Shown here: positions 3,883-38,410 of the stretch, piece by piece
Layout: the number at the start of each line of letters is the position of its first letter
Position numbering within the stretch: the first letter of the stretch is position 1
IMG/VR virus record: IMGVR_UViG_3300037297_000082
Coordinates: 1-42,218 of that record
Origin: a virus
Direction: 5' to 3' (one strand)
DNA length: 42,218 bases
The notes under the pieces: generated by a model
What the model saw: only the letters and a program-made list of their open reading frames with translations
What the model was told of the DNA's origin: nothing
Databases searched by the model: none
Made by a program: the position numbers and the translations under genes

Positions 3883-4562
3883 ACGCCATCGCCATCATCC
3901 CGGCCCGCGGCGGCTCCCGTGGCGTCCCGCGGAAAAACCTCTGCGAGGTCGGCGGAAAGCCGCTGATGGTCTGGTCGATCCAGGCGGCGCTGGAGGCCGG
4001 CCTTGAGGTCGTGGTCTCGTCGGACGACGATGAAATCCTCGAAATGGCAGCACGCGATGACGTGCTCTTGAGGCGTCGTCCGTACGGTCTCGCAACCGAT
4101 GGGGCCCTGACGGATCCGGTGCTGGTGGATGCCGTCAACGCCTTGGGCCGGCCTGAGCTCTCGCATGTAGTCCTGCTCCAGCCCACGGTCCCCGTCCGGT
4201 CGGTGGGCCTGGTGGCCCGGTGTCTCCAGGTGGCCGAGGAGACGGGCGCCGATTCGGTCTTCACGGCCTACCCGCTGCACTTCGTGTGGTGGAGAGCCGG
4301 GATGGATCCCGGCCGGACAGACCATCGGCCCGACACCTGGGAGACGCAGTGCCGGCGCCGGCCGCGCAGGCAGGACATGCACGCCCGGGAGCTGATGTAT
4401 CACGAGGACGGGAGTGTCTACGTGACGCGCGTCCAGACGCTCCTGGAGACGGGCTCGAGGGTGGCCGGGCGGGTCGAGATCGTTGAGACGGAGCGGACGG
4501 TCGACGTGGACACTGAGGCGGATCTGATCGTGGCGGATGCGCTGCTGAGGGCGCGCGCGTGA
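3879..4562 (+). CDS. CMP-sugar synthetase-like cytidylyltransferase (NeuA/CTP_transf_3 type)
   Basis: A full-length 227-residue enzyme of the acylneuraminate cytidylyltransferase family, which activates a nonulosonic or Kdo-like sugar with CTP. The N-terminal signature AIIPARGGSRGVPRKNL (residues 5-21) is almost the family consensus. Also present are VVSSDDDEI (46-53), LLQPTVPVR (99-107), RRQD (163-166), DGSVYV (177-182) and DVDTEADL (209-216), whose two Asp residues match the metal-binding pair of the family. No catalytic motif appears degraded. It sits between portal and protease, where head genes are expected, so the product may modify the virion. The exact sugar cannot be read from sequence. 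Confidence 0.88.
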   Translation: MNAIAIIPARGGSRGVPRKNLCEVGGKPLMVWSIQAALEAGLEVVVSSDDDEILEMAARDDVLLRRRPYGLATDGALTDPVLVDAVNALGRPELSHVVLLQPTVPVRSVGLVARCLQVAEETGADSVFTAYPLHFVWWRAGMDPGRTDHRPDTWETQCRRRPRRQDMHARELMYHEDGSVYVTRVQTLLETGSRVAGRVEIVETERTVDVDTEADLIVADALLRARA

Positions 4563-4847: not shown

Positions 4848-5846
4848 ATGGATGGTGCCTTGTCCGCCGAGGCGCAGGCCCCCGTCGAGGGGACCGTCCG
4901 CTACCGACAGTTTGAGACCACCGTCAAGGCCGAGGGTGCGGATCGCGAGCTGGCCTTCACCGTCAGCACCGGCGCCGTAGATCGGCACCGGGACACGATC
5001 CGTCCCGAGGGCTGGGACCTCGACAACTTCCGCAAGGCCGGGTCTGTGCTGTGGGCCCATGATTCGTCTGGGCTCCCGATTGCCAGGCCGACCTATGCGG
5101 CCGTCATCGGCGGCGCGTTGAAGGCGCGCGCGGTTTTCGCGACCCGCGAGCTCTACGCCTTCGCGGACACCGTTTACGAAATGCTCCGTGGGGGTTTCCT
5201 GCGCGCCACGAGCGTCGGATTCTTGCCCAAGGAATGGTCGTATGACGAAGAGCGCGGCGGGTACAACATCCTGGCGCAGGAGCTCCTGGAGTGGTCCGTG
5301 GTCCCCGTCCCGGCCCTGCCAGATGCCTTGATCGAGGCCAAGCACTCCGGAGTGGACGTTGCCCCGATGCGCGAGTGGGCCGAGCGCACGCTGGATCAGG
5401 TCTCGGGCCCTGGCCTCTGGGTGCCGCGCGCCGCCGCCGAGCAGGTGTTCTCCCTCTCCGCGGGCGCGCCCGTTTCCGTCCTGTCGCCTGGCTCGCCCCG
5501 GGCGATCCTCTCAACCTCCACGTCTGAGGCGGGGGAGCAGGGCTCGGCCGGGTCTCATGCGCCCGTGTCGCCCGGTTCGAGTCCGGGCCCCGCAGCCGCC
5601 AAGGTGTTGAGTTCCGCGAATCAGTCGCGAGTGGAATCGGCGCGGGACGCCGCGCGCTCGATAGCGGACGGGCTCGAGGAGGTTTTGACTTCGGCCGCGT
5701 CCGAGGAGTCCGAAAGCGAGGAGAAGCATGCGGTCTTGCGCCTTGCGCAGCCGCCCGCGGCTGGCCTTTCTGCGGGCGATGTGCGCGCTATTGTGGCGGA
5801 GACCGTGCAGACCGTCGTAAGGCAGGCGCTGGGGCGCCTTGACTGA
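4848..5846 (+). CDS. Prohead protease, HK97 (S78) family
   Basis: A 332-residue maturation protease that cleaves the capsid scaffold region during head assembly. The core spans about residues 35-165: STGAVDRHRDTIRPEGW, then VLWAHDSSGLPI with the likely catalytic His71, then ATSVGFLP with the likely catalytic Ser122, then ELLEWSVVPVPALPDAL. The C-terminal 165 residues are Ala/Ser/Pro-rich and then helical, which could act as a scaffold-like extension. The ribosome site is weak. It directly precedes the major capsid gene. Confidence 0.92.
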   Translation: MDGALSAEAQAPVEGTVRYRQFETTVKAEGADRELAFTVSTGAVDRHRDTIRPEGWDLDNFRKAGSVLWAHDSSGLPIARPTYAAVIGGALKARAVFATRELYAFADTVYEMLRGGFLRATSVGFLPKEWSYDEERGGYNILAQELLEWSVVPVPALPDALIEAKHSGVDVAPMREWAERTLDQVSGPGLWVPRAAAEQVFSLSAGAPVSVLSPGSPRAILSTSTSEAGEQGSAGSHAPVSPGSSPGPAAAKVLSSANQSRVESARDAARSIADGLEEVLTSAASEESESEEKHAVLRLAQPPAAGLSAGDVRAIVAETVQTVVRQALGRLD

Positions 5847-5861
5847 CTGAAGGAGAAGACC

Positions 5862-7232
5862 ATGCCCGAAGACACGAAGCACGAGATGACCCGTGAGGAG
5901 CTCGTCAAGCTCATTCACGAGGAGTCCGCGAAGCAGGGCAAGCCGGCGCCTCAAGGTGACGATCTGGCCATCGTGCGGGACGCCACCGCCGAGGCAGTGG
6001 CCGCGGCGCTGAAGCCTCTGCTGGACAGCTCGAACTCGACCCTCAACGCGGTCAAGGATCTGGCGGAGGTGCAGAAGGAGCGCGAGGCAAAGCCGAAGCT
6101 CGGACTCGGCCGGAAGGTGCGCCTCTACGCCCTCGGCACGATGGACGAGAACGGAAAGGCCCTCGGCGGCCGGAGCCGCGCCAACGACATGGACTACCTG
6201 AAGTTCCAGGCTCGCCGGAACTGGGGCGAACTCGGAGCTGAGGCTATCAAGTTCGTCGACTACCAGCAGAAGGCGTCCGTTCACACGGTCCACGACTCCT
6301 CCGTTGCTGGCGACATCGTTCAGCCCGCCTACTCTCCAGAGTGGATCGAGCTGCTCCGGCCGGCGACTACGGTCCGCAGGATCGCTGCAACCGATCCAAT
6401 GCCGCGCGGCGCTCTCTCCGTCCGGAAGCAGACGCAGGACGCCACCGCCTACTACCAGGGCGAATCCGACAAGATGACGCAGTCGAACATCGAGGTCGGG
6501 CGGGAGACCATGAGCTATAAGAAGCTCACGGCGCTCTGCGTGCTCAACAACGATCTGATCCGATTCGGCGGACCCGAAGCGGACGCGCGTGTTGAGGCCT
6601 CGATGGTGGCCGCCGCCGGCCAGCGCGAGGATCAGGCCTTCTTGATGGGCAATCCGCCGACGAACGCCGGCTCGCCGAAGGGGATCGTTTTCTGGGCGAA
6701 CAGCGGGAGCCGCTTCCAGAACGCCGGCTCGGCCCTGACCAACTTCCAGAGCGACATCGGCATCGCGCTGGGCTACTTGTGGGACAACGACATCCCGGTC
6801 GACCCGACCAACACGTACATCATCATGAATCCGATTACCTGGCTCAAGATCCTGAGCCTCAGCATCGTCACGGGCGACCTCTCTTGGGCGGCCACGACCG
6901 CCGGCGGCCGGCTGACCTTCATGGGCTACCCGGCGCTGGTGACGTCTCAGCTCAGCAAGGGCAAGACCCATCCGCAGGCGGCCTTCGTCACAGCGCTCAG
7001 CCAGACCTACGGCGGCTCGATCATCGTGGCCTACGCGCCGGCTCTGCGGATCTACGACAGTTACGCGCTCACGACCACCGTCTATCCCGGAGGCGCCTAT
7101 TACGACGCCGCCCTGAGCGCGGTGGCCTCGGGCATCTCCAACGACGAGACCGTCGTGACCGCGATCGCGGAGCACGACTTCTTCATGTCCCATGACCGTG
7201 CCGCCTCGGTCATCATGAACTACAACCTGTAG
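5862..7232 (+). CDS. Major capsid protein, HK97 fold
   Basis: A 456-residue shell protein. Residues 1 to about 100 are charged and helical, as in the delta domain removed by the protease. The HK97-type body follows, with DIVQPAYSPEWIELLRPATTV, a VRKQTQD and YYQGES stretch of the E-loop and spine region, and REDQAFLMG. The C-terminus carries the usual beta-rich P/A domains ending in HDFFMSHDRAASVIM. AAGGAGAA precedes the ATG. Confidence 0.94.
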   Translation: MPEDTKHEMTREELVKLIHEESAKQGKPAPQGDDLAIVRDATAEAVAAALKPLLDSSNSTLNAVKDLAEVQKEREAKPKLGLGRKVRLYALGTMDENGKALGGRSRANDMDYLKFQARRNWGELGAEAIKFVDYQQKASVHTVHDSSVAGDIVQPAYSPEWIELLRPATTVRRIAATDPMPRGALSVRKQTQDATAYYQGESDKMTQSNIEVGRETMSYKKLTALCVLNNDLIRFGGPEADARVEASMVAAAGQREDQAFLMGNPPTNAGSPKGIVFWANSGSRFQNAGSALTNFQSDIGIALGYLWDNDIPVDPTNTYIIMNPITWLKILSLSIVTGDLSWAATTAGGRLTFMGYPALVTSQLSKGKTHPQAAFVTALSQTYGGSIIVAYAPALRIYDSYALTTTVYPGGAYYDAALSAVASGISNDETVVTAIAEHDFFMSHDRAASVIMNYNL

Positions 7233-24167: not shown

Positions 24168-24170
24168 ACG

Positions 24171-24398
24171 ATGGCACTCAGAAAGAAAGACCTGGAATTT
24201 CCGTTCCTCGTCATTCGCCACGCGCGAGTTGGTGGCGGCGTAATCTCGCGTCACGTCCACTACTCACGGGCGGAAAGGTCCCGTGATCTGGCGAGGCGGC
24301 GCGGAGTCCCGTGTGACGTCTGGGACACTCGATGCGGTGCGCCCCCGCAGTCTGGGAGCGTCGCGTCGCGGAAGTATCCCGATGAGCCGTGTGCCTGA
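24171..24398 (+). CDS. Possible small basic protein
   Basis: 75 residues beginning MALRKKDLEFPFLVIRHA. No clear ribosome site and composition only moderately protein-like. It fills the space between two better genes and has no recognised family. Confidence 0.4.
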   Translation: MALRKKDLEFPFLVIRHARVGGGVISRHVHYSRAERSRDLARRRGVPCDVWDTRCGAPPQSGSVASRKYPDEPCA

Positions 24399-24420
24399 TG
24401 CCTGTGATCGGAGGTGCGTG

Positions 24421-24543
24421 ATGATGAGGAATATCCCGATCTGGTGTCTGCGTGATCCTGATACCTGGCGGTATTGGTGGTCGCGCGGTCCCGATGTCTT
24501 CGTGTCGCCGCCGTGGCGCCTGCGGCTACGGAGGGGGTGGTAG
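24421..24543 (+). CDS. 40-residue Trp/Arg-rich small protein
   Basis: Starts at the first of two adjacent ATGs, 6 nt after GGAGG. The sequence IPIWCLRDPDTWRYWWSRG is rich in Trp. Unknown function. Confidence 0.45.
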   Translation: MMRNIPIWCLRDPDTWRYWWSRGPDVFVSPPWRLRLRRGW

Positions 24544-24545
24544 CA

Positions 24546-24680
24546 ATGGCTGCTCATCATCATTCCGACGAGGTCAGGCAGCGCATCCAGCGCGCCCGAG
24601 AGCACTACCAGACGCGCGCCGAGCGCCGGCCACAGCAGCGATGGGATCCGGTCGCGCGTCGGTGGGAGAAGGTGCGCTAA
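24546..24680 (+). CDS. 44-residue charged small protein
   Basis: Preceded by GGAGGGGG. Helical and basic (SDEVRQRIQRAREHYQTRAE), then WDPVARRWEKVR. Stop and next start overlap (TAATG). Unknown function. Confidence 0.5.
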   Translation: MAAHHHSDEVRQRIQRAREHYQTRAERRPQQRWDPVARRWEKVR

Positions 24681-24871
24681 TGGCCGACCGGGTGTCGTGC
24701 GTGCACTGCAGTCGTACCATCCGGCTCCGGGCCAGCGATGGCCGGAGGCCCTGGCATCGAGACAGGAGCAAGCTCCGCAAGTGGTGCCCAGGGAGCCCTC
24801 GCTACAAGGCGCGCCAGGTCGCGCGCCCGGTCGTCCTCGCGAGCGAGCTGGACGAGATCGCAGGGGAGTGA
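24680..24871 (+). CDS. Small Cys-containing basic protein
   Basis: 63 residues beginning MADRVSCVHCSRTIRLR, with a CxxC, a later His, and a further KWCPGS. It may bind zinc. It lies in a run of coupled small early genes. Confidence 0.55.
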   Translation: MADRVSCVHCSRTIRLRASDGRRPWHRDRSKLRKWCPGSPRYKARQVARPVVLASELDEIAGE

Positions 24872-24879
24872 GACCGCCT

Positions 24880-25119
24880 ATGACCTCGTATCGCGATGAT
24901 CTCGCGGCCCTCTACGCCCGGGCGCCGCGGGCCAAGCGCCTGGCGGACGATCTGCTGGAGCTATCGGAGCGGGCGCGGGCGGCCGGTGACGTGGTCCAGG
25001 CGGAGTCCGTGTTCTGGCAGGCCGACCACTTGGGGACTCAGGCTGAGCGCGGGCAGGAGATCGCGCCGGACGTGGAGGCGGAGGTGAGGGCCCGCTACGG
25101 GCTCGAGGAGCGAGCATGA
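24880..25119 (+). CDS. Small helical early protein
   Basis: 79 residues, GGGGAG upstream. Helical throughout (LADDLLELSERARAAGD, ADHLGTQAERG). ATGA overlap with the recombination gene that follows, so co-translated. Unknown function. Confidence 0.6.
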   Translation: MTSYRDDLAALYARAPRAKRLADDLLELSERARAAGDVVQAESVFWQADHLGTQAERGQEIAPDVEAEVRARYGLEERA

Positions 25120-26168
25120 GCGAGGAGCTGTCGGTGATTGGAGGGCGCGGGATCGCGCGGGATGAGCAGGGGGGCCTGCTGGCGCTGGCGTCCATGACGG
25201 AGGGGGACTTCGAGGAGCGCCTCGCAACGCTGAAGCGCGGCCGTGACCGGATGGCCCGGATCAAGCGCGAGCTCATGAGGCCCGATGTCCACTATGGGAC
25301 GATTCCCGGGACGGAACGGGCGACGCTGCTCAAGCCCGGATCCGAGGTCCTCTGCGACATCTACGGCTTCCGGCCCGACTTTGCTCCCACCTACGAGTAC
25401 GGCGATGGCGAAACCTCTCCAGCGATTCGCATCGAGGTCAGGAGCATGCTGCATCGTGGGGACCTGTCCGGGCCGATCGTCGCGGTGGGCTACGGCTCAG
25501 CCAACTCTTGGGAGCGCAAGCACCGCTACCGGAGCAGCGAGCGGGCCTGCCCTTCCTGCGGTGCCGCTGGCAGCATCCGGCGGTCCGGCTACCAGAACAA
25601 GGGCGGTCCACACAAGGGCGAGAAGGGCTGGTGGTGCAAGGACTGCCGGACGAACTGGGACGATCCGCGCGAGCCTGCGATCGTTGAGCAGCAGGTTGGC
25701 CGGGTGGCCAACCCAGACCAGCACGACCTCGAGAACACTCTCCTCAAGATGGCCGTGAAGCGGGCGCAGATCGATGCAACGTTGCGCGGCACGGCGTCCT
25801 CCGACCTTTTCACGCAGGACCTGGAGGACGCGCCGCACGAGGTCCCGGGCTCTCCGGATGACGTCGCTCCGGCCGACCCGGCCCCCGAGGCCCCACGCCC
25901 GGCGCCCCGGCGCAAGCGGGGACGCCCGGCGCCCCGGCGCAAGCGGGGCCCAGAGGGCGAGCAGCTCCGCGGGCCCGAGGGCGGACGCGATGAGCTGATG
26001 GCCGAGATCATGGAACGCGTTGGCGCGGACATCGATGAGGCGCGCGAGTTCCTCCGGCGTGCCACTGGCAGAACGACGGCGAAGGGCGTTTGGACGCCGG
26101 AGGAGCTGGCTGCGGGCTGGGCCTACCTACGGACAGACGCTGCGCGCCAGCCGGGAGAGGATGGATAG
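25116..26168 (+). CDS. Recombination-module protein with zinc ribbon, possible ssDNA-annealing protein
   Basis: 350 residues. LMRPDVHYGTIPGTERATLLKPGSEVL (split at 53-79), GYGSANSWERKHRYR and NPDQHDLENTLLKMAVKRAQIDATL, then SSDLFTQDLED, are signatures of a widespread phage protein that lies next to recombination genes and may be Rad52-like; that link is uncertain. A zinc ribbon (CPSC...CKDC, about 145-180) is inserted. A linker with a duplicated APRRKRG unit precedes a short helical C-terminal domain. Confidence 0.65.
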   Translation: MSEELSVIGGRGIARDEQGGLLALASMTEGDFEERLATLKRGRDRMARIKRELMRPDVHYGTIPGTERATLLKPGSEVLCDIYGFRPDFAPTYEYGDGETSPAIRIEVRSMLHRGDLSGPIVAVGYGSANSWERKHRYRSSERACPSCGAAGSIRRSGYQNKGGPHKGEKGWWCKDCRTNWDDPREPAIVEQQVGRVANPDQHDLENTLLKMAVKRAQIDATLRGTASSDLFTQDLEDAPHEVPGSPDDVAPADPAPEAPRPAPRRKRGRPAPRRKRGPEGEQLRGPEGGRDELMAEIMERVGADIDEAREFLRRATGRTTAKGVWTPEELAAGWAYLRTDAARQPGEDG

Positions 26169-26170
26169 CC

Positions 26171-26920
26171 ATGGCCGACCCACAGGCCGCCCTCTTGCTG
26201 CTCGAGCCGGATCAGGCCAAGGCGTACCGGCAGCTCGCCGTGCGCGTCCAGGAGGTCACGGCGAGCTTGCCAGATCACGCCCTGGCCAACCAGGCCGAAG
26301 CGGACGCTCTCAACGGCGCCCTAATCCGCGCCAAAGAAGCCCTAGCCACAATCGAGCGGGCCAGGAAGAGCGCGACGAAGGATCTCCGCGACCAGGTCCG
26401 CCAGATCGATGACCTCTACCGGCCGCTGACGGACGCCCTGAAGGGGCTAAAGGCGGCGGCGGATCCGCTGCTCCTGGCCTGGATTCGGGCGGAGCGGGAG
26501 CGCGTGGAGGCCGAGCGCCGCGAGGCGGAGCGGCTGGCCAGGGAGGCCGAGGAGCGTGAGATCCAGGCGCGGCTGGCGGCCGAGGAGACCGAGTCGCCGA
26601 AGGTACGCGCGGTGGCCGAGCGCCAGGTGGCCGAAGCCCAGCAGCAGGCGGCCTTCGCCCTGTCGCATGCTCCGGCCCCGGTCAAGGGCGTCGCTGGAGC
26701 CGTGGGCGGCCACTCCGTCACGCGGACCTGGAAAGCGATCGTTAGCGAGCCGGCGAAGCTGCCGCGCGAGTTCCTGATGCCGGATCAGGCCGCGATTGAC
26801 GAGGCGCTCGCCATCGCGGTCCGGAAGATGCGGGCCGCTGGGCGGGGGGCGCCGGACTTGGACATCCCGGGCGTGACGCTCGAGGAGGTGGAGGGGCTTC
26901 GGAGGGGGCGAGGGCGGTAG
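26171..26920 (+). CDS. Coiled-coil protein of the recombination module
   Basis: 249 residues. A long charged coiled coil (about 45-165, with repeats of the form ERREAERLAREAEER) is followed by VTRTWKAIVSEPAKLPREFLMP and a C-terminal LDIPGVTLEEVEGL. Proteins with this layout are common beside phage annealases and exonucleases. The true role (nuclease-associated or inhibitor) is not clear. Confidence 0.65.
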   Translation: MADPQAALLLLEPDQAKAYRQLAVRVQEVTASLPDHALANQAEADALNGALIRAKEALATIERARKSATKDLRDQVRQIDDLYRPLTDALKGLKAAADPLLLAWIRAERERVEAERREAERLAREAEEREIQARLAAEETESPKVRAVAERQVAEAQQQAAFALSHAPAPVKGVAGAVGGHSVTRTWKAIVSEPAKLPREFLMPDQAAIDEALAIAVRKMRAAGRGAPDLDIPGVTLEEVEGLRRGRGR

Positions 26921-26921
26921 G

Positions 26922-27347
26922 ATGCGCTTCTCCGCCCAGATCACGCCGCTCGGCCGGCTCGTGCTCGATGACGAGCCGCGATGGCGGGCCGCCCTTCTGC
27001 GCTGGGCAGGGCTCCGGGTCTCCGTGGACCTTGCCAAGCCGAAGCGATCCGACCGCGCCAACCGCTACTACTTCGGCCGCGTCGTGACGACGTTCCAGGG
27101 CATCTGGAGCAAGGGCCGGGTCGCGATCGGCCTGCCGCCGTACACCAAGGAGGAGGCGCACTCCGTGATTGTCCAGGTGTGCCTCGGCTCGGTTCCTGGG
27201 CCAGTCGCCGGCACGGTGCTGCCGAAGCCGACGCGGGACATGCCGAGCGACGTGTTCGCGGATCTGACCAACAAGGCGCGGAAGCTCGCCTGGGACGAGT
27301 ACCAGATCCACATCCCAGAAGCCAACGAGCCGGAGGAGGGCCTCTGA
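26922..27347 (+). CDS. Putative NinB-like recombination protein
   Basis: 141 residues. The motifs RSDRANRYYFGRVV, the KEEAHSVIV helix, a MPSDVFADLTNKARKLAWDEY helix (split) and a closing IHIPEANEP agree with NinB/Orf-type recombination mediators of lambdoid phages, in which N-RYYWG and IP.PN are conserved. The gene order supports it. Confidence 0.65.
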   Translation: MRFSAQITPLGRLVLDDEPRWRAALLRWAGLRVSVDLAKPKRSDRANRYYFGRVVTTFQGIWSKGRVAIGLPPYTKEEAHSVIVQVCLGSVPGPVAGTVLPKPTRDMPSDVFADLTNKARKLAWDEYQIHIPEANEPEEGL

Positions 27348-27348
27348 C

Positions 27349-27738
27349 ATGAGAACGCGTGAGAAGCGTCAATACCCTCCCCTGCCGCCTGAGTGTGCCG
27401 AGGCCGAGCGTAGGGCCGAGCTTGTGCTGTCGTGCGCGTTTCGTGGCATCCACCACGTGGATGAGTGGAGGCGCCGCTATGCCTTCGGCTCAGGAGTGGC
27501 GATCAACATCTACTGCCACGGGCTGGCTACGTACGACTTCGACGAGCTGACGAGGCTGGTAGTAGCCGCGCACGATCACTGTGTGCGGCTCGAGATCTCC
27601 GCGATCAGCCCGACCCACGTTCGGTTGGCCTTCCACTGCCGAGAGCGCGACGCTGAGGCCGTATGGGACAGGCACCCAACCATCGAGACACAGATCGCGG
27701 CCATTCGTGCGGGTCGAGAGCAGGCGGCAATGCGATGA
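27349..27738 (+). CDS. Hypothetical early protein
   Basis: 129 residues, GAGGAGGG upstream. Compact alpha/beta pattern with IYCHGLATYDFDELTRLVVAAHDHCVRL split over a strand and helix, and HVRLAFHCRERD. Unknown function. It is the last convincing protein gene before the structured region. Confidence 0.65.
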   Translation: MRTREKRQYPPLPPECAEAERRAELVLSCAFRGIHHVDEWRRRYAFGSGVAINIYCHGLATYDFDELTRLVVAAHDHCVRLEISAISPTHVRLAFHCRERDAEAVWDRHPTIETQIAAIRAGREQAAMR

Positions 27739-27841
27739 GAGCGTTGCATGAGTCGTCCCGCGCGGCAATGGGGCCGCGCCGGAATCGAGAGCGGAGGGTC
27801 TATCGGGGAGCTTCATCTGGGGTGGGAAAGATCATTCGTCA

Positions 27842-28111
27842 CCCGGCCGGGGGGCTGTCCCCGGTCGGGCCCTATCGAGCAGCGCAGGGGCGCGGCGTGG
27901 AACGGCCCATGAGTACCAGCGGGGAACAGTCCGCGCGAAGAGTGGGCAACGGACAAATGGACACGCATGGGTAAACCCGAAAGGAATACAGGAACGGCCG
28001 ACGTCTCCTGGGAGGAAGGATGGGTCGAATCGACCGTTGGAAGTCCATCGCCCAATCCGTAGAACCCGGAGCCGGTATCAAGCCCGGCCGTCCCTGCGCT
28101 GCTCGATGGGG
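27842..28111 (+). ncRNA. Structured element, unit 1
   Basis: 5' hairpin: 27842-27853 pairs with 27858-27869 (12 bp, two G-U, loop GCTG). It is followed at once by the long-range helix 27870-27892 with 28089-28111 (23 bp, including U-G and G-U wobbles), closing a 196 nt interior. The strand is assigned from the G-U pairs that occur on the + strand and from the direction of all neighbours. Confidence 0.7.
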
Positions 28112-28188
28112 GACTCTGAGAAGGGCGTGGCTAAGCAGCATCGCCAGCGGGACGCTCCGCCAGCCCAGTATCGTCGTACGACGTCGTA

Positions 28189-28417
28189 CCGAGCCGGGAG
28201 CGCTCCACGGCTCGGACCTATCGAGCAGCGCAGGGATGCGGCGCATACGGGCAACCGTCACTGCGCGCTTCCATTACCAGCGGTGGCCCGGGCCGAGGAC
28301 GGCCGTCCTTTCCCGGGTTGGAATTGCTCCTGCGGGCTTGCGCACATGGGACCGCGAGAATACGCAAGCCTATAGGGCGTCTGGCTTCGGCCGGCCGTCC
28401 CTGCGCTGCTCGATGGG
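28189..28417 (+). ncRNA. Structured element, unit 2
   Basis: 5' hairpin: CCGAGCCG (28189-28196) pairs with CGGCTCGG (28208-28215) and encloses GGAGCGCTCC. Long-range helix 28217-28238 with 28396-28417 (22 bp). Interior of 157 nt with further stems: ACGG-GCAA-CCGT near 28248-28259, and GGCTTGCG/CGCAAGCC in the 3' half. The core 19 nt of both helix arms are identical to unit 1. Confidence 0.7.
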
Positions 28418-28510
28418 GAGGGGGTGTGGATTGACACACGCTGTGAGCCGAAGGCCAAGGCGATCAGTGCGAAGGCACTTCCCGTCTAGGCGACGCTGCC
28501 GAATCCGTAT

Positions 28511-28703
28511 TGAGCCGGGAGCGCTCCCCGGCTCGGCCCATGAGGCAGCGCTGAGGTGCGGTGATGGCCACGGCAATGGTCCTCTCACTGGTTGTCCCCC
28601 GACGCCACCGCTGGAGAGAGCACGCGGTATGACCGCAATGGTCGACGCAGCGCACCCGCGCTCCCGTGTTATCTGGCGGCCATCTCAGCGTTGCCTCATG
28701 GGC
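28511..28703 (+). ncRNA. Structured element, unit 3
   Basis: 5' hairpin 28512-28534 differs from the unit 2 hairpin by one base. Long-range helix 28536-28558 with 28681-28703 (23 bp). Interior 122 nt. Compared with units 1 and 2, five base pairs of the helix are replaced by other Watson-Crick pairs and two switch to or from G-U, while pairing stays complete. Confidence 0.7.
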
Positions 28704-28795
28704 GCGTCAGGCGCTTGGCGTGTCCGACGTGCGATTGCCGTGGCCGAGACGGAGCGCCCCGTGCTCGGCCCTTTCAACTGGCCAGGAGGAAACGA

Positions 28796-29098
28796 ATGAG
28801 CGTGGGTCGCGTCCTTGACGTGCTCCTCGGCATCGTGAGCTGGTGCGGGGTGACGGCGCTCCTGCTCATCGTGGTCCGCATGGTCCGTCACCCGGAGGGC
28901 CCAGACCTGCTCACTGGCATTCTGATCTCCTCGGCGCTCGCCGTTGGCTTCGGGCTCTTCGCGATGTGCCTCTGCGCGCTGGCCTGGTGCGCGTGGCGCC
29001 GGGAGATTCTGTGGGCCTGGTGGGCGGCCCGGGCGTGGGTGGCATTCGTGCTGTTGCCGCTAGTGCTTCCGCGCGTCCGGCGGAGGAGGCGAGCATGA
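28796..29098 (+). CDS. Small membrane protein downstream of the structured region
   Basis: 100 residues, AGGAGG with good spacing. Three likely membrane segments: about 7-28 (VLDVLLGIVSWCGVTALLLI), 39-65 (LLTGILISSALAVGFGLF and on) and 77-90 (AWVAFVLLPLVL), then a poly-Arg end. Function unknown. Its position after the RNA-like units may or may not matter. Confidence 0.7.
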   Translation: MSVGRVLDVLLGIVSWCGVTALLLIVVRMVRHPEGPDLLTGILISSALAVGFGLFAMCLCALAWCAWRREILWAWWAARAWVAFVLLPLVLPRVRRRRRA

Positions 29099-29316
29099 TG
29101 CGCCTACGCGCCCGCTGGCGAGCCTGGCGCCTCCGCCGGCGCCCCGTGGTGGTCCACCTAGCGCTGGATCCGCCCAGCCCCCAGGATCTCAGGGAGGCGG
29201 AGCGGATGCGGGCCACGGTGCGGAGGATCTGCCGGCCCAGCGGGGCTGGAGGCGTGCGGCCGGGGGACTGGCCGTGCGGGGAGGTGTGGGAGCGGCTGTA
29301 TGGGAGGCAGGCATGA
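29095..29316 (+). CDS. Small basic protein
   Basis: 73 residues, ATGA overlap; GGAGGAGG upstream. Arg-rich N-terminus, then VHLALDPPSPQDLREAERM. Unknown function. Confidence 0.55.
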   Translation: MMRLRARWRAWRLRRRPVVVHLALDPPSPQDLREAERMRATVRRICRPSGAGGVRPGDWPCGEVWERLYGRQA

Positions 29317-29573
29317 GTAATTCGGTGCAGGTGCATCTGTGCATTCTGTGGGAGGACGAGATCAAAGTCGCTGCCCGCCTGTTGAAGGACGTCCACGACT
29401 ACAAGCACACGGACGGGGAGACCAGTGATCAGGCATTTGGTGATCTTGTCACATCTGCTCTGAATGCCTGCATGACCGCCCTTTGGTCGGCAGAGGACGA
29501 GACCCGGCCGTTGCTCCTATCCTCTGCGAGTCATCTCGTTGGCGTTCGCTACCGGCGGAGGAATCGAAAGTGA
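29313..29573 (+). CDS. Hypothetical small protein
   Basis: 86 residues, ATGA overlap. VQVHLCILWEDEIKVAARLL and FGDLVTSALNACMTALW suggest an alpha/beta fold. Unknown function. Confidence 0.6.
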   Translation: MSNSVQVHLCILWEDEIKVAARLLKDVHDYKHTDGETSDQAFGDLVTSALNACMTALWSAEDETRPLLLSSASHLVGVRYRRRNRK

Positions 29574-33909: not shown

Positions 33910-34103
33910 CGTCGAGGACGAGGAGGCTGATCCGGGCGTTGGAGACGATCCAGCAGCAGGAGTACGGCTATAGGTCCCCGCTCCATGAGACGGCCATGGC
34001 CGCTCGCGCTCTGCGGTGGGCGCTGGGCGTTGTGGTTGCGTCTGAGGCGCGGGAGCACCTGCGGGACGCCATCTGTGAACTGGAGGGGAGGGCCGGGAGA
34101 TGA
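33906..34103 (+). CDS. Small helical protein
   Basis: 65 residues from a GTG in a GTGA overlap. Helical (AARALRWALGVVVASEAREHL). Unknown function. Confidence 0.55.
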   Translation: MTSRTRRLIRALETIQQQEYGYRSPLHETAMAARALRWALGVVVASEAREHLRDAICELEGRAGR

Positions 34104-34819
34104 GCGAGCCACTGACGGACGCGGAGCGGGAAGATGTTCGCAGGTACTATGGAAGGAAAAGCAAGTCGCGTCGCCTGCTGGACGAGGTCGAGGCCCTGCG
34201 CGCGGAGGTTGCCAATCTGAGAGCGGCCAGAGAATCGGACGCCGAGGAGTACGCCGGGGCGTACTCAAAGCGCGAGGGCGACGCTCTCAAGGCCGAGAAC
34301 GAGCGGCTGAAGGCTGAGATCCAGCTTATAACCGCGCCGATTGAGGCCGGGGGTGGACTGGCGGCTTCGCTGCGCGCCGAGCGCAATGCCCTCAAGGCCG
34401 AGAACGAGCGGCTGAAGGGCACCAACGTCCGGCTGAGCGACGAGTGTCTGGAGTTCAAGGCCAAGCTGGAGGCGGCCGAGGCCCGCGAAGAAGCGCTGGC
34501 GGCAGAGGTCGCCTGCTTCCGTCGCTGTCTCTGGGTTGGTCATGGTCATCGAGCCGGTCTCTACGGAGACGATGGAGAGATGCAGTGCGCGGCATGCGCC
34601 CCTGCGTGGGACTACAAGCGCCATGACCCAATGACGACTACGCACGCTGCATTCAAGGCTGCCCGCGCCGACGAGCGCCGCAAGGTGGCCGAGGAGATCC
34701 AGGAGGCTGTTCGCTCTGAGGACTTCCACGGCGCCCACAAGCGGGTAGCGACATGGGCCGCGCGCTTCGTTCGCAAGCACGGGGGCGAGCAGGCCCGGCG
34801 GGCGGACAGGGAGGAGTGA
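34100..34819 (+). CDS. Coiled-coil protein A, paralogue of the broken gene at 37696
   Basis: 239 residues. MSEPLTDAE and RRLLDEVEALRAEVA at the start; repeated heptads ALKAENERLK, encoded by an exact 27 nt repeat; then a CAAC region and a C-terminal helical ADERRKVAEEIQEAV...FVRKHGG. The same start, KAKLEAAEA block and C-terminal ADERR...FVRE pattern recur at 37696-38410. Unknown function. Confidence 0.65.
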   Translation: MSEPLTDAEREDVRRYYGRKSKSRRLLDEVEALRAEVANLRAARESDAEEYAGAYSKREGDALKAENERLKAEIQLITAPIEAGGGLAASLRAERNALKAENERLKGTNVRLSDECLEFKAKLEAAEAREEALAAEVACFRRCLWVGHGHRAGLYGDDGEMQCAACAPAWDYKRHDPMTTTHAAFKAARADERRKVAEEIQEAVRSEDFHGAHKRVATWAARFVRKHGGEQARRADREE

Positions 34820-37312: not shown

Positions 37313-37699
37313 GTGGGCTGGCTGAAGGTCGTCATCGGGGCCATCGTTGATTGGGCGCGCTCGCCCAACGGCCGTGTGTGGGGTCGCGCAGCCGTGGAGG
37401 TGATCGCCGAGCGAATCGCCAGCCGGCGTGACGAGCAGGCGATTGACGCTGCTATAGCTGCGGCCCGGGTCGCCGACGAGGATCCGGCGACGGGTGCTGG
37501 CCCGTCCGTTTCGTCATTCCCGGCGGCCGAGGCCTTGTCGCTCGAATCGGCCGAGCACGCGCTGCTGGCACGGATCCGGGTGCTGACGGCGCGGATGCCC
37601 GTGCTGGCGGACAAGCGCAACGCCATGGCGCGCATGTTGGACTTGGTCAAGCAGCTCGAACTGGTGCAGGACCGGTTGGCGGCGAAGGCGAGGGGATGA
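37313..37699 (+). CDS. Lysis-region protein of unknown function
   Basis: 128 residues from a GTG. A hydrophobic N-terminus (WLKVVIGAIVDWA) is followed by a charged helical middle with EQAIDAAIAAARVADED and a C-terminal coiled coil (MLDLVKQLELVQDRLAAK). It may be membrane-anchored, possibly spanin- or holin-associated. Confidence 0.55.
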   Translation: MGWLKVVIGAIVDWARSPNGRVWGRAAVEVIAERIASRRDEQAIDAAIAAARVADEDPATGAGPSVSSFPAAEALSLESAEHALLARIRVLTARMPVLADKRNAMARMLDLVKQLELVQDRLAAKARG

Positions 37700-38410
37700 T
37701 GGGCGAGCCACTGACGGATTCGGAGCTAGAGCGTCTCCAGGCTTGCGCTTGGACGGGCGATGGGGTGACAGCGCGGGATACACGTCGCCTGCTGGACGAG
37801 GTTGAGGCCCTGCGCGCGGAGGTGGCAGAGACCAAGCGGGACCGTGACGCGCTTGGGGAGCATCTGCGGGGAAGGATCGCGGACATGCGGGACGAGCGTG
37901 ACGCCCTCAAGGCCAAGCTGGAGGCGGCCGAGGCCGAGGCCAGCGAGGGGGACTCCTGGATGGAGCGTGCGCGCAAGGCGCAGGAGAACGGCGTGTGTGG
38001 CCTGTGCTTTGGATCTGAGGAGCACAAGCCCGGATGCTACGTGCTGGAGTGCGAGGAGCGAGGAGCGCGCCGAGGCGTCCGAGGCCCGCGTGCGGGAGCT
38101 GGAGGCCGAGCGATCGAAACTGTGGGAGTGCGAACGGGACGACGAGCAGCGTCGGGAGAAGATGGAATATGAGATCGCGCGGTTAGAGCACAGCATGGCG
38201 CGGCTCTCCATTGAGGCAGAAGACGCCCGCGCGGACGAGCGCCGCGATATTGCGCAGCAGATGTTCGTTGTTGCTGCTTCTGGGATGATGTTTGAGTGTT
38301 TGCGCGAGACCGACACGCCGGAGGCCAGGAGGAGGCTTGTCGACTGGTGCGCGTCCTTCGTCCGCGAGAATGCGAAGCAGGCCCGGCAGCCCGAGGTGTC
38401 AACGTCATGA
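37696..38410 (+). pseudogene. Coiled-coil gene B, frame broken by a 7 bp tandem duplication
   Basis: Frame 1 (from 37696) reads MMGEPLTDSE, RRLLDEVEALRAEVA, ALKAKLEAAEAEA, then loses sense after CYVLECEERG and stops at 38172. The sense continues in the +1 frame with RAEASEARVRELEAER and ends ADERRDIAQQMF...CASFVREN at 38410. The break is exactly at two copies of GAGGAGC (38053-38059, 38060-38066); removing one restores a single frame. The C-terminal part aligns with the paralogue at 34100, which confirms the frame. Could be a real null allele, a phase switch, or a sequence error. Confidence 0.8.

Follow-up and report, generated by a model that had tools for sequence, protein, structure and literature searches.

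Three tandem hairpin-helix units in the longest non-coding gap of a tailed phage genome: a candidate unclassified structured RNA

The stretch of DNA analysed here (the window) is the entire IMG/VR virus record IMGVR_UViG_3300037297_000082, 42,218 bases in length. It encodes a tailed phage, with terminase, portal, head, tail and tape-measure genes on the + strand. A gene finder based on codon usage covered nearly the whole contig and left one long gap, at 27739-28795 (1057 nt, + strand), which ORF scores also mark as non-coding and intercistronic and which holds the array described below. The second-largest gap is 378 nt (24168-24545), and no other in the contig exceeds 400 nt. According to the same gene finder, all genes neighbouring the array gap lie on the + strand. 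Upstream and co-oriented are the genes for a phrog_10048 protein (25116-26168), an exonuclease-like protein matching phrog_10477 (26171-26920), a protein that is possibly NinB-like, judged from its position and 27% identity (26922-27347), and a phrog_22261 protein (27349-27738), whose gene ends at the gap. This block resembles the recombination module of Caulobacter phage DMCA, which, unlike the window, is without a corresponding gap at the position of the array. Downstream, at 28796-29098 (+ strand), the gene finder and translation give a small hydrophobic protein of 100 aa with a good Shine-Dalgarno sequence, probably a membrane protein as far as its sequence tells. Farther downstream lies a gene for an MT-A70 methyltransferase, the sole match in a PADLOC scan of the neighbouring genes. 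Neither a sigma-70-type promoter nor an intrinsic terminator was found at the locus (terminators were sought within 27000-29500).

Other features were seen elsewhere in the window. A weakly coding stretch contains an inverted repeat of 35 nt (24584-24618 with 24820-24854), which is imperfect, pairs better on the minus strand and has a hairpin adjoining. ARAGORN called a tRNA-Met at 5523-5597, inside a predicted head gene (4848-5846); the call is probably false, or else the genes overlap. At 34100-34819 and 37699-38172 are coiled-coil-like genes with near-identical long stretches (95% over 44 nt), suggesting duplication.

The array consists of three units in tandem, all on the + strand and all (3/3) built to the same plan: a hairpin of 10-12 bp, then 0-1 nt, and then a closing helix of 22-23 bp that holds only Watson-Crick and G-U pairs, with no mismatch. 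In unit 1, folding gives hairpin H1 at 27842-27869 (12 bp, 4-nt loop); the arms of its closing helix are 27870-27892 and 28089-28111, and they enclose 196 nt (27893-28088). Unit 2 comprises hairpin H2 at 28189-28215, also located by folding, and arms at 28217-28238 and 28396-28417 around an interior of 157 nt (28239-28395). In unit 3, hairpin H3 (28511-28535, by folding) is followed by arms at 28536-28558 and 28681-28703, which close 122 nt (28559-28680). A fourth hairpin, H4 (28742-28770, + strand), is a sequence relative of H2 and H3 (z about 5.4); it immediately precedes the ribosome-binding site of the next gene, and no long helix comes after it. The preliminary description had reported hairpins followed by 22-23 bp helices closing 196, 157 and 122 nt, with units 1 and 2 the same in a 19-nt helix core and the hairpins of units 2 and 3 near identical. 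On re-check its coordinates and base changes were all correct: the lengths are exact, the two cores are identical, and H2 and H3 share 88% identity over 34 nt.

Folded as a whole, units 1, 2 and 3 have z-scores of -5.2, -7.0 and -6.5, respectively. The arms of units 1 and 2 are interchangeable, giving duplexes of -45 to -50 kcal/mol. The arms of unit 3 form a duplex of -47 kcal/mol with each other and of -22 to -28 kcal/mol with those of units 1 and 2. Alternative clamping between the first two units is therefore possible, while the arms of unit 3 prefer each other.

Compared with unit 1, unit 3 has nine changed pairs and none that is broken. Seven of the nine are double Watson-Crick swaps (pairs 1, 7, 8, 9, 17, 19 and 22 of 23), and at pairs 4 and 13 of 23 a Watson-Crick pair is exchanged for G-U or the reverse. 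Seven of these changes, five double swaps and the two that involve G-U, had previously been claimed for the 19-nt core of unit 3; the two further double swaps, at pairs 1 and 22, lie beyond the core and were absent from that account. When eight changes per arm were placed independently in 200,000 simulations, the minimum number of broken pairs was two, against none in the real unit 3. A structure-pair count gave 6 pairs changed on both sides, with pair 1 omitted owing to an alignment gap there, and 98.5% of helix cells paired. The covariation score was reached by none of 500 shuffles, and it fell to near zero when the register was slid. Furthermore, a helix score of at least 21 was obtained for a single helix in 1 of 1500 dinucleotide shuffles of the region; the region itself has three such helices. 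The covarying helix expected of a structured non-coding RNA is thus found here on paralogues, the covariation being drawn from three of them, effectively two distinct helix sequences, in one genome.

Template switching or gene conversion between arms might also keep duplicated inverted repeats complementary without selection, so that the array would have no present function. The arms are indeed repeated while the interiors are not, those of units 1 and 2 are identical, and there is no homologue showing conservation. However, conversion would erase G-U pairs, yet two per helix persist, all of one strand type, and the hairpins are retained as well. About 1 kb of idle sequence is, moreover, rare in phage genomes, and this contig has no comparable gap. 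We regard an array devoid of function as very improbable.

We then asked of the sequence whether it is coding, and whether it acts as RNA or as DNA. The ORF at 28020-28799 has a codon log-odds score of -18.7, compared with +12.1, +16.3 and +37.5 for three neighbouring genes of 100 to 141 codons, and the frame has no PHROG or Pfam match. The preliminary description had named homologues that conserve this frame as protein, but not the helix, as the observation that would speak against an RNA; what was found is an anti-coding score and no protein-family match. On the anti-coding score, a coding gene was rejected as an explanation of the array. No tRNA or tmRNA was called in the array, and CRISPR, retron and integron attC elements were set aside by reasoning from anatomy alone.

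Read on the + strand, the helices and hairpins contain ten G-U wobbles and no A-C, a count biased by a helix-finding score that favours G-U, although nothing in that score makes several helices agree on one strand. This pattern points to an RNA read together with the operon. A DNA-level element, that is, an origin, recombination or inversion sites or a cruciform in which the inverted repeats act as DNA, would be in keeping with the adjoining recombination genes, with arms that are perfect inverted repeats save at the G-U positions, and with the identity of the arms of units 1 and 2. But use as DNA predicts G-T and A-C equally, and since every wobble on the + strand is G-T and A-C was never found, use as RNA is preferred. 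The hairpin stands on one side only, which would be a poor fit to an invertible segment, and no invertase was seen among the part of the genes scanned. A role at the DNA level is improbable. Taken together, the array is very probably a selected non-coding RNA structure.

What selection keeps can be seen by folding the parts separately. The interiors of units 1, 2 and 3, folded alone, have z-scores of 0.03, -1.22 and 0.02, and the spacers 0.52, 0.40, -0.48 and 0.26. Aligned with each other, the interiors match no better than shuffled sequence, that of unit 1 having no homology to the others, and the helix length stays at 22-23 bp while the interiors differ. Because the z-scores of interiors and spacers are near zero, it must be the hairpins and closing helices that give the whole units their low energies. 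Selection is visible solely on these, so the hairpin-helix clamp is the selected object. Of the earlier proposal of a new large phage RNA, one part stands: a real non-coding structure at the RNA level without an Rfam match, borne out by the compensatory changes, G-U pairs without A-C and an anti-coding ORF. A likeness to large ornate RNAs such as ROOL and GOLLD is not supported, given interiors and spacers that fold at about z = 0 and are not homologous from unit to unit.

These results bear on whether the array is a trans-acting large structured phage RNA of the ROOL/GOLLD/OLE kind, with a scaffold formed by the folding or assembly of its three clamped domains. Its size of about 0.93 kb, its location in a phage, the long closing helices and the stable whole-unit folds would all suit such an RNA, and large phage RNAs are an already established kind (PMC12286853). 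On the other hand, the interiors are no better folded than shuffles and are unconserved between units, Rfam gives no match and no tRNA array adjoins. A scaffold RNA is therefore unlikely in our estimation.

A cis-acting leader for antitermination or attenuation, like the put sites of HK022 but in triplicate, would account for the paired elements 0-1 nt apart and for the co-oriented position in an operon; the 3' arm of unit 1 can, in addition, pair alternatively with the 5' arm of unit 2. Yet a put element measures about 70 nt and has no enclosed segment of 122-196 nt, and no terminators on which such a leader might act were found within 27000-29500. We give this explanation a low probability.

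Searches for relatives were carried out at the level of the RNA family, the DNA and the genome. With Rfam 15 covariance models at the gathering score, the whole window gave no match, GOLLD, ROOL and OLE included; in relaxed mode just irrelevant eukaryotic models appeared (E 3.9 and 8.3). The earlier statement that no known class is recognised thus agrees with Rfam. DNA similarity to the array was found neither in phages nor in plasmids, and the exact 19-mer was not found in viral contigs. Conservation in an independent genome was accordingly not seen in phages, plasmids or viral contigs, collections that may omit a close relative. L002 and L003, related through the terminase (about 71% identical), are contigs too short to include the array locus, and no terminase relatives were found in genome contigs. 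As no sequence homologue was found, a family is not definable from this single genome. The most suitable place for the array is among unclassified candidate non-coding RNAs, as a variant of the structured RNAs of phages.

The architecture was also looked for in other loci. Structured RNAs did not stand apart when folding energy was taken in fixed windows and regressed on composition. A scan for the architecture itself, over about 2 Mb of loci, gave L007 and L130 as the clearest cases besides the window; the remaining matches included coding or low-complexity repeats (L139) and very weak ones. L007 (IMGVR_UViG_3300005077_000450) belongs, with L023, to a comparison set of 20 phages found through the MT-A70 methyltransferase. 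It has an 857-nt non-coding gap, with a PD-(D/E)XK nuclease before and a small hydrophobic protein after, upstream of an MT-A70 methyltransferase 46% identical to that of the window. Within the gap are a hairpin (4031-4053), a long helix with 30-nt arms (4053-4082 with 4245-4274; overall z -4.9) and a second helix of 13 bp (4293-4305 with 4427-4439). The first interior has a z-score of 0.31, and the second is structured (z -2.77). L007 is like the array in its hairpin and long helix, in the recombination nuclease before the gap and in partial synteny; it differs in having one such unit plus the 13-bp helix, in the imperfection of its long helix and in its partly structured second interior. No sequence similarity between L007 and the array was detected. 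We take L007 to be a parallel in architecture and place rather than an established homologue. In L023, a gap of 1,089 nt contains long helices; judged by their wobbles, two are better read on the minus strand and a third on the plus strand, and L023 supports the reading of the array more weakly than L007 does.

Several further structured elements were observed in the loci compared. On the minus strand of L023:6678-7420, one end is acceptor-stem-like with a T-arm (GGGGUAG ... UGCAAAU loop ... CUACCCCA), for which ARAGORN made no call. In L130 (6003-6433, Janthinobacterium prophage), a long structured RNA has a tRNA-like 3' end and contains a hairpin and a helix with 24-bp arms (6064-6087 with 6167-6190); its 3' sequence is related to a tRNA-like element with an odd anticodon in another Janthinobacterium prophage (L134:4855-4938). 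A tRNA-like element with acceptor and T-arm lies upstream of a phrog_10048-type gene in Xanthomonas phage PBR31 (L025:4726-4836). Structured non-coding gaps also lie upstream of a phrog_10048-type gene in Paraburkholderia and Ralstonia prophages (L132:4365-4651 and L135:5151-6506). These two gaps align over two short, collinear segments, one at 72% over 54 columns (E 0.03) and the other at 95% over 21 nt (E 0.39); they also have the GCCGGGAAAGACCGGC hairpin in common, and that of L135 terminates in a terminator-like hairpin; they are possibly another unclassified phage RNA. When 398 relatives of L135 were searched for a GGAAAGA-hairpin pattern, matches were about as frequent as with the reversed control and were put down to chance. 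Finally, an AT-rich phage (L013:12522-13242) has a strongly structured 721-nt gap (z about -10, from 8 shuffles) that has no match in Rfam; genes for RNase HII and RNA-ligase-like proteins are close by.

The reading that we tentatively prefer, at somewhat less than even probability, is that the array is a non-coding, co-transcribed intercistronic RNA of the early recombination operon, with three paralogous clamp modules that bind a protein or RNase III. The array would be transcribed as part of the operon, the conserved clamp would do the work, as the site that a double-strand-specific protein recognises, and the interiors of 122-196 nt would be loops or passengers. RNase III, which needs about two turns of uninterrupted duplex, is proposed as the likeliest partner on the length of the helices. 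At 22-23 bp without mismatch, they reach the regular duplex of at least about 20 bp that this enzyme calls for. In the processing stems of pre-rRNA, RNase III helices enclose long segments, and RNase III is the most economical candidate here because about two turns of unbroken duplex likewise enclose long segments. Cleavage would separate the recombination genes from those downstream on the polycistronic early mRNA, and would release three short RNAs. That the array serves RNase III-type processing is, by this analogy, possible but doubtful. A cassette-type phage RNA seems quite unlikely. In it, a clamp kept by selection would either retain interchangeable RNA payloads of unrelated sequence or free them from the early transcript; it would be arrayed here and would recur, with different sequences, at similar places in other phages (L007). 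If expressed, the array would be an unclassified phage RNA whose sole selected part is a repeated clamp around unrelated sequence, in contrast to the described large phage RNAs, which keep their entire fold conserved. Phages would then employ arrays of duplex modules for processing or protecting early transcripts.

GOLLD and ROOL are described as large RNAs of phages and prophages that often lie near tRNA islands and form cages (PMC12286853). Like the array, they are large phage non-coding RNAs with long-range helices. The array differs from them in that its interiors are not detectably structured or conserved, in its three paralogous clamps and in having no Rfam match; it adjoins no tRNA island, the window's single tRNA call, at 5523, being 22 kb off. 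The put sites of HK022 consist of two adjacent stem-loops in nascent RNA that modify RNA polymerase. They share with the array paired adjacent elements in a phage early transcript, but the second element of the array is long-range rather than a short hairpin, and there are three copies within one region. RNase III processing stems, as in pre-rRNA and in T7 and lambda early mRNA, resemble the array in having an unbroken helix of about two turns that closes a long segment of a polycistronic transcript, whereas in the array a hairpin is stacked before each helix and the module is repeated in tandem.
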